From Deltaproteobacteria bacterium (GTDB lineage Bacteria; Myxococcota; Myxococcia; Myxococcales; 40CM-4-68-19): DNA of 51,027 bases. Both the position numbers and the translations under genes were made by a program. Location of the stretch: assembly GCA_005879535.1 (NCBI GenBank), contig VBKI01000031.1, positions 1 through 51,027 of the forward strand, given 5' to 3'. Every line of letters starts with the position of its first letter. The stretch's first letter is position 1. Positions 5,559-33,875 of this stretch are shown here, in pieces. The notes under the pieces were generated by a model that did not search any database, was not told where the DNA came from, and saw only the letters and a program-made list of their open reading frames with translations.

Positions 5559-6485
5559 TTGAGGCGAACGCTGCTCGTCCTGCTCACGGCGTCGATCGCG
5601 CTGCCTGCGGAAGCGCGCGTGCCCAGGAAAGCCAGGCGCGCGCCGGTGATGCGCGCCGAGGACGATCCGCGCAAGAGGGGCCGCGCGTTCCCCAGGGCAT
5701 CGATCACCTTCGCCGCGCCGGCGGATCTCTCGCAATCGGCCGAAGGAGCGGTGGCCGTCCGCGTGGTGGTGAAAGGTTACGCGATCGGAGCGCTGCGGCC
5801 CGGCGGTCCCGTTCCGCACACCCACCTCATCGTCGACAACGAGCCGGCGATGGAAATCCCCGATGCGAACGCGACGTGGATGCTCGGCGGGCTCTCGCCA
5901 GGGCCGCATTTGCTTCGCGTCGTGCTGTGCAGGCCCTGGCACGAGGTGGTGAAAGCGCCGAGGGCATTCGCGATGGTGCGCGTCTGGATGGGGCCGAGGA
6001 TCCCCGGCAAGGCCGGCAGGGCCGCGGAGTCCGTGACCTGGCCCCAGCCAAGAAAGCCGATCCTCACGTACGTCCTGCCGGTGGGCGCACCCTCCGAGCA
6101 ACTGGTGCTCGCGCGCCTGGAAGAGAATCCTCCCGACGCTGCCGCCGACGCGGGGCAGGCCAAGCCGCCGGACCCGGTCGCGACTCCGCTTCCGGGGGCG
6201 AACCGGCCCGTGCTCGATTTCTACCTGTCGAATGCCAAGCTCGGCCGCCGCGGCGACAAGGTCCGCATCGTGCTCGACCGGCGCGAGCTTCCGTTGATCA
6301 CCGACTGGAAGCCGCACCTCTTGCGAGGGGCACGCGGCGGCGCGCACCGCATCTCGATCGATCTGCTGAGCCGCAAGGGCGTGAAGGTGAACAACGTGCT
6401 CAACCGGAGCGACCGCGTGTTCACCGTCGAGAGCCTGCAGCGAAAGGGCGGATCGCGGCTCGGCGATTCGCGTCTCTCACGCTGA
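5559..6485 (+). CDS. Exported protein of unknown function
   Basis: A 308-residue protein read from a TTG at 5559, preceded by a GGAGCGCAGGG stretch. The N-terminus (LRRTLLVLLTASIALPAEA) is a signal peptide with an Ala-x-Ala-like cleavage site. Two similar beta-rich segments are visible. The first (residues ~80-130) contains HTHLIVDNEPAM and LSPGPHLLRVVLC. The second (~220-300) contains VLDFYLSNAKLG and GAHRISIDLLSRKG. Both resemble the 'ligand value / length of chain' layout of DUF4399-like periplasmic Ig-type folds, but I do not assign a family. It lies downstream of the phosphoesterase and overlaps the convergent rhodanese gene by nine bases. Function not recognised. Confidence 0.72.
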   Translation: MRRTLLVLLTASIALPAEARVPRKARRAPVMRAEDDPRKRGRAFPRASITFAAPADLSQSAEGAVAVRVVVKGYAIGALRPGGPVPHTHLIVDNEPAMEIPDANATWMLGGLSPGPHLLRVVLCRPWHEVVKAPRAFAMVRVWMGPRIPGKAGRAAESVTWPQPRKPILTYVLPVGAPSEQLVLARLEENPPDAAADAGQAKPPDPVATPLPGANRPVLDFYLSNAKLGRRGDKVRIVLDRRELPLITDWKPHLLRGARGGAHRISIDLLSRKGVKVNNVLNRSDRVFTVESLQRKGGSRLGDSRLSR

Positions 6486-6893
6486 AGGGTCGCCCTTCTC
6501 CACCGGCTTGCCGGCCTTCTGCCAGCCCTGGATGCCGGCCGACATGATGTAGACGTTCTTGTATCCGAAGCTGAGCGCCGCACGGGCGCCCTGGTGGCAG
6601 GCCATTCAATGCGTGTTCGCGCAATAGAACACGAGCTTGCGCGACTTGTCCTTGGGGAGATCGCTCTCCTTCACCGCCTTGAAGTCGACCCACTTCGCGG
6701 TGGGGACGTGTCCCTTGGCGTACACGTCCTTGCCGTTGTTGTCGAAGATGTCCGCGTCCTTCTTGGCGATGAGATCGGCGACCTGATCGATGGTCAGATC
6801 GCCGAAGCCCTCTTCCTTGGCCGAGTCGGCGCGCGCCGTTCCCGCGAACAGCAGCACGAGAGCGGCGAACAGGGTCCTGCGCAGGATTCTCAT
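6477..6893 (-). CDS. Exported rhodanese-domain protein with in-frame UGA, candidate selenoprotein
   Basis: Translation from ATG 6893 gives a signal peptide (LRRTLFAALVLLFAGTARA) and a single rhodanese domain. A TGA at 6608-6606 falls inside the active-site loop, giving VFYCANTH-(UGA)-MACHQGARAA. The same frame continues without another stop for 42 codons through the normal end of the fold (NVYIMSAGIQGWQKAGKPV). Exported rhodaneses of this type usually have FYC-x4-C, so UGA replaces the second loop Cys; the FYC Cys is kept. A hairpin follows at +15 (listed separately). I read UGA as selenocysteine, giving 138 residues. The alternative is a nonsense mutation, and a standard caller would stop at 6606. 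No clear ribosome site precedes the ATG. Confidence 0.72.
6573..6591 (-). promoter_or_regulatory. Candidate bacterial SECIS hairpin of the rhodanese gene
   Basis: On the minus strand, starting 15 bases after the UGA, the mRNA reads GGGCGCC-CGUGC-GGCGCUC. That is a 7-bp stem (one G-U pair) with a 5-base loop whose second base is G. Bacterial SECIS elements sit directly downstream of the UGA inside the coding region, with a short apical loop carrying a G in its first two positions. This fits, with the loop G at +23. GC-rich coding DNA forms hairpins easily, so the hairpin alone is weak; the match to the peroxiredoxin hairpin strengthens it. Confidence 0.55.
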
Positions 6894-33431: not shown

Positions 33432-33875
33432 ATGCCCATGCTGAACGTCGGCGACCCGGCGCCGGATTTCACCCTCACTTCGCATGAGGGCAAGACGGTG
33501 AAGCTCAGCGATCTGCGCGGCAAGAACGTCATCCTCTGGTTCTACCCGAAGGCCGACACCCCTGGTTGAACCCTGCAGGGCTGCGGGCTCCGGGATCGAG
33601 CCCGTGATCTTGCCGCGAAGAACGCGGTCATCCTGGGCGTGAGCTTCGATACCGTTCAGGAGAACAAGCACTTCGCGGAAAAATTCAACTTCCCCTATCC
33701 GCTCTTGTCGGATCCGACGCGCGCCATGGGCGTGCAGTACGGCGCGGCGGACACCACGCAGAGCGGAAACGCGAAGCGCGTCGCGTACATCATCGGCCCC
33801 GACGGCAAGGTGAAAAACGTCTTCGCCAAGGCGAACACTTCGACCTTCGCCGCCGACGTGCTCGCTCTTCTGTAA
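33432..33875 (+). CDS. bcp: BCP-type peroxiredoxin with in-frame UGA at the peroxidatic position, candidate selenoprotein
   Basis: From ATG 33432 (GGAGG ribosome site) the frame reads [30 protein letters not shown], then TGA (33567-33569), then TLQGCGLRD and on in the same frame to a stop at 33875. In BCP/PrxQ proteins the motif is ADTPGCT....C, so the UGA replaces exactly the peroxidatic Cys; the resolving Cys five residues later is kept. The rest of the fold is intact ([29 protein letters not shown]), giving 147 residues. A hairpin starts at +15. Selenocysteine peroxiredoxins are an established bacterial selenoprotein family. Standard calling would report two fragments. Confidence 0.85.
33584..33604 (+). 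promoter_or_regulatory. Candidate bacterial SECIS hairpin of the peroxiredoxin gene
   Basis: CGGGCUC-CGGGAUC-GAGCCCG: a perfect 7-bp stem beginning 15 bases after the UGA, with a 7-base loop whose second base is G at +23. Two further G-U pairs can extend the stem downward. Offset, stem length and loop-G position equal those of the rhodanese hairpin at 6573-6591. Confidence 0.65.

Follow-up and report, generated by a model that had tools for sequence, protein, structure and literature searches.

A probable selenocysteine in the active-site loop of an exported single-domain rhodanese from a myxococcotal genome

We describe a gene on a 51,027-nucleotide contig (the whole stretch of DNA analysed, hereafter the window) for an exported single-domain rhodanese whose active-site loop is interrupted by an in-frame UGA, and which is very probably a genuine selenoprotein on the comparative evidence set out below. 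The UGA itself, its conservation, the selenocysteine (Sec) machinery of the genome, the hairpin that accompanies the UGA, the use of Cys as the alternative residue and the selection on the codons after the UGA are all strongly supported, and from them we infer that Sec is inserted at codon 96. Gene callers that treat UGA solely as a stop truncate the protein at residue 95, inside the active-site loop.

The rhodanese gene and its product

The initial annotation of the window had placed a UGA at the second Cys of an FYC-x4-C loop in an exported rhodanese at positions 6477-6893, with the frame continuing through the rhodanese C-terminus. Both statements are borne out. The gene lies on the minus strand, and its read-through translation is MRILRRTLFAALVLLFAGTARADS...LVFYCANTH-U-MACHQGARAALSFGYKNVYIMSAGIQGWQKAGKPVEKGDPSA, followed by a UGA stop. 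The features referred to below are:

6477..6893, minus strand: coding sequence of the exported single-domain rhodanese, a probable selenoprotein, 138 residues with the UGA read as Sec
6828..6893, minus strand: probable Sec-pathway signal peptide MRILRRTLFAALVLLFAGTARA, with cleavage predicted after ARA, read from the sequence
6621..6623, minus strand: catalytic Cys91 of the rhodanese loop, invariant across homologues (alignments A1 and A3)
6606..6608, minus strand: in-frame UGA, codon 96, interpreted as Sec from the translation and the homologues
6597..6599, minus strand: Cys99, which makes a UxxC motif with Sec96, from the alignment
6573..6591, minus strand: SECIS-like hairpin, stem +15..+21 / +27..+33 after the UGA, loop CGUGC, from comparison
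6477-6479, minus strand: terminal stop UGA of the gene, read from the sequence

The UGA falls five residues past the invariant catalytic Cys, in the loop FYC-ANTH-U-MACH. The position of Cys99 is occupied by Cys in most close relatives and by Ser in most distant ones. A basic n-region, a hydrophobic core and an A-x-A motif, the traits of a signal peptide, also recur in homologues, and the protein is accordingly predicted to be exported to the periplasm. Residues 35-127 of the read-through protein match Pfam PF00581 with 61.3 bits against a cut-off of 22.2, and an AlphaFold model based on 32 aligned sequences shows a rhodanese fold with high confidence (mean pLDDT 87.9), comprising a strand at 87-90, a loop at 91-97 and a helix at 98-108; the Foldseek matches of the model are rhodaneses, including GlpE and YgaP. 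The score above gathering, the predicted fold and the catalytic Cys at the first loop position together place the protein among the rhodanese domains; judging from this fold, Sec96 would lie near Cys91 in space.

A reading of CMACH in the Cys-containing members as a heme-binding CXXCH motif was rejected, as distant members have SH rather than CH and the motif is located where a rhodanese active-site helix begins. Three Cys members (L028, L029 and L057) carry CxACH in place of the UxACH of Sec members, which in form is a CXXCH heme motif; the resemblance is probably coincidental.

The UGA codon in related genomes

The rhodanese is present in 12/12 genomes of the same GTDB family. Ten of the 13 aligned rows from this family carry the UGA, and the other three have Cys at exactly the same column, the residue that the initial annotation had led one to expect there. 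Sec orthologues in related genomes, for which it had suggested a search, were likewise found, in the genus, the family, the order and other classes: among the 145 genomes of the order, a match with UGA was found in 34 and UGA-free matches only in 20. The related genomes in the GTDB collection are mostly Myxococcota or "Deltaproteobacteria" metagenome-assembled genomes (MAGs), the close relatives being such assemblies, and one betaproteobacterial MAG also carries the UGA. Among the other in-frame stops encountered in related rhodaneses, two TAA hits proved to be ordinary terminal stops when checked; a single TAG hit lies in a fragment at a contig end.

Within the family, every genus except one, g2, has UGA at this column. 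The only sampled members of g2, G007 and G008, have Cys there and lack SelA. Gene order at their rhodanese loci (L050 and L051) is as in the window, with GNAT and OPT-transporter genes upstream and the same hypothetical protein downstream, and these shared neighbours identify the two Cys rhodaneses as positional orthologues. They amount to a natural experiment, in which orthologues in the same gene order contain Sec in genomes with SelA and Cys in genomes without it.

The codons after the UGA are under purifying selection, with a median dN/dS of 0.28 compared to 0.35 before it. In-frame UGA is thus followed by conserved coding sequence and is matched by Cys in homologues, the pattern by which selenoproteins are recognized. 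Repeated exchange between Sec and Cys, the topic of PMC1794560, is typical of selenoprotein families, and in a tree of 76 homologues, computed with the trait column masked and strongly supported on few branches, about 10 Sec/Cys changes are needed, versus 25 for shuffled labels. Because the Sec rows are related to one another and few branches of the tree are resolved, the Sec/Cys statistics given here and below are not independent.

Selenocysteine machinery of the genome

The sel genes, to which the initial annotation had also pointed, are all present in the window's genome (5.16 Mb in 118 contigs), which therefore holds the SelA/SelB/SelC/SelD set used as a criterion for bacterial selenoproteins. 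It encodes a tRNA-Sec with anticodon TCA (70 bits), SelA (500 bits), SelB (302.7 bits summed over its frame) and SelD (355 bits). The frame of SelD contains one in-frame TGA of its own (L203, G000:C33:15304-16236), and SelD is therefore probably itself a selenoprotein.

In the GTDB family, SelA is missing only from G007, G008 and G002. The last of these has the UGA rhodanese but yields no SelA match, which is explicable by the genome being 61% complete. Across the order, SelA was found in 33/34 genomes with a UGA rhodanese versus 10/20 of those with UGA-free homologues only (Fisher p 7e-5, shared ancestry not being corrected for).

A SECIS-like hairpin behind the UGA

A hairpin with a seven-pair stem and a five-base loop begins 14 nt behind the UGA and keeps the same register across the Sec homologues. 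All seven stem pairs are formed in 44 of 68 distinct Sec sequences versus none of 93 Cys sequences, and the loop has GU or GG in most Sec rows. Measured against synonymous-codon shuffles, the local folding energy has a mean z of -1.51 for the Sec sequences and -0.08 for the Cys sequences (Mann-Whitney p 6e-15); for the two Cys orthologues within the family, the local fold is nonetheless moderately stable (z about -1.5). The third stem pair, +17:+31, is G-C in five Sec rows (the window and four others) and C-G in 59, and its swap in close relatives alters two residues jointly, giving Gly and Leu versus Ala and Val.

Folded alone, the 62-nt segment downstream of the UGA in the window shows no unusual stability (z +1.0), and since the single sequence is unexceptional in this respect, the case for the hairpin rests on the comparison. 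Searches of the window against Rfam gave no matches at gathering scores. On these comparative grounds, the element just 3' of the UGA has the properties of a bSECIS hairpin specific to the UGA-containing members.

Proposed role of Sec96 and alternative explanations

We propose that the UGA at codon 96 is decoded as Sec by SelB and tRNA-Sec, directed by the hairpin 14 nt after it. In the mature protein, Cys91 would act as the usual rhodanese nucleophile and take up sulfane sulfur as a persulfide. Sec96 would form the end of the six-residue active-site loop, directly ahead of a helix, at a site that is Cys in most relatives, and its selenol would most likely attack the Cys91 persulfide, or an oxidation product of Cys91, releasing sulfide or the reduced product. 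The resulting Cys91-Sec96 selenenylsulfide would then be re-opened by a periplasmic thiol reductant. That Sec96 serves as the resolving selenol is suggested by its position, and we regard this role as about evenly balanced between true and false. More tentative still is the complete picture of a large and as yet uncatalogued family of rhodanese selenoproteins in the periplasm, whose Sec is the resolving and not the catalytic residue, operating a relay between a Cys persulfide and a selenol by way of a selenenylsulfide. If true, such a family would link selenium with the handling of sulfane sulfur outside the cytoplasm throughout Myxococcota. With a Sec in the second loop position of an exported rhodanese, a resolving role in sulfane-sulfur chemistry becomes directly testable.

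The main mechanistic alternative accepts the selenoprotein and differs only as to its chemistry: the protein might not be a sulfurtransferase at all, and instead use the rhodanese scaffold as a periplasmic thiol/selenol oxidoreductase or peroxide sensor, with Cys91-Sec96 or Sec96-xx-Cys99 as the redox pair. This possibility has a real, if minority, claim. It is favored by the UxxC motif that Cys99 creates in the closest relatives, and by the homology of most predicted selenoproteins to thiol oxidoreductases (PMC9312934), whereas the invariance of Cys91 and the rhodanese loop, together with the replacement of Cys99 by Ser in most of the distant Sec members, speaks against it.

The remaining alternatives deny Sec, and each of them is very improbable. 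Were the UGA a functional stop, the gene would produce a 95-residue protein, with separate downstream translation from the AUG that directly follows in the window (UGA-AUG), and UGA does serve as the terminator of this very gene. In relatives, however, the codon after the UGA is CTG, CAC or ACG, so that the downstream start is not conserved; the split would moreover fall within the active-site loop, ahead of its helix, and the Cys homologues read straight through. We therefore consider this arrangement highly unlikely, and the next two even less so. In a draft, multi-contig genome a single change from TGC to TGA would suffice to create a pseudogene or a spurious stop, whether as a real nonsense mutation or as a TGC/TGT that was called wrongly, but several genera and families, represented by independent assemblies, have this UGA in the identical column, with purifying selection downstream, which leaves such an error scarcely credible. 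Decoding as another residue, through suppression or one of the UGA-as-Trp codes that exist elsewhere, is just as hard to sustain given that the homologous column holds Cys and not Trp, that the genome has a complete Sec machinery, that the hairpin tracks the UGA and that UGA also terminates the same gene.

Relation to known rhodanese selenoproteins

The reading of the gene as a selenoprotein of the sulfurtransferase fold stands, but the view in the initial annotation that an exported selenoprotein of this kind would be unusual was overstated. The kind is known, since five forms of rhodanese selenoprotein have already been catalogued (PMC13188914), following an earlier list (PMC9312934), and exported Sec rhodaneses are common both among Myxococcota and within the class to which a Desulfuromonadales genome belongs. 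The catalogued forms are UxxS (form 1, WP_010941598.1), UxxG (forms 2 and 4), CxU (form 3, NF041203) and TsoB (UxxxxU) (PMC13188914). They resemble the window protein in having a PF00581 domain with one predicted Sec, TsoB being a partial exception as detailed below. No NCBIfam model was matched above its cut-off by the window protein, and in the literature searched we found no description of this exported single-domain CxxxxU family of Myxococcota, whose closest members have UxxC.

Form 1, whose accession turned up in the papers searched only in two review tables and which could be compared by catalogue notation only, is UxxS, whereas the window protein has UMAC (UxxC) in a 138-residue, single-domain, exported protein. 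Possible equivalents of form 1 come from the class of the Desulfuromonadales genome, where exported proteins of about 470 residues (L186-L191, L194, L200 and L201) contain three rhodanese domains, the first with FCAGVT-U-ALS. These may be form 1 itself, as their motif is UxxS in catalogue notation, and they carry U at the same column as the window protein; Sec at this loop position is for that reason probably already known among the catalogued rhodaneses. In form 3, Sec follows the Cys by two residues (FYCAU, as in L198) rather than five, and the window protein, with its Sec at +5, reaches only 37.9 of the 115 bits required by NF041203 and falls outside it.

Among NCBIfam models the window protein is closest to TsoB (NF045694), which resembles a fusion of rhodanese and DsbD and is matched over its rhodanese half; the x4 spacing of TsoB suggests a second Sec at the position seen here. 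It differs in having Sec also at the apparent catalytic position and in the length of its model (572 positions), compared to a single domain with one Sec, and at 51.2 of 805 bits the window protein does not belong to it. Against the PQQ_CXXCW family (TIGR03865) it scores 37.5 of 128 bits. The rhodanese domains of GlpE (1gmx) and YgaP share its fold and the position of the catalytic Cys, but lack Sec and are only about 19-26% identical to it. Its direct Cys counterparts are the exported Cys rhodaneses of Myxococcota (FYCANxxCxxS), which share the loop but have Cys in place of Sec and, unlike the window gene, neither the UGA nor the full hairpin.

Two further groups were noted during these comparisons. 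Another family of small rhodaneses, apparently without a signal peptide (L036, L037 and L039, from G003, G011 and G004), carries the U of its YCWxxx-U motif in this same loop column and ends in a CxCSR tail. Proteins from Desulfovibrionales-type and related MAGs (L075, L077, L079 and L084) contain a rhodanese with YCRxFR-U-LL followed by a possible thioredoxin-like domain, and are likely another Sec rhodanese.

Other in-frame UGA codons in the window

The window was scanned for every in-frame TGA with coding-like codon bias on both sides. Three sites only were found, namely the rhodanese gene, 33567 on the plus strand and 44362, the last of which was set aside because it looks like a gene boundary. 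The site at 33567 is the sole other credible UGA gene in the window and encodes a Bcp-type peroxiredoxin with DTPG-U-TLQGC, that is, with Sec at the peroxidatic position (TxxU). The argument that two such genes in one window are unlikely to have arisen by chance mutation is upheld by the small number of sites and by the retention of the rhodanese UGA in related genomes. TxxU peroxiredoxins of the Bcp type are a known selenoprotein family.
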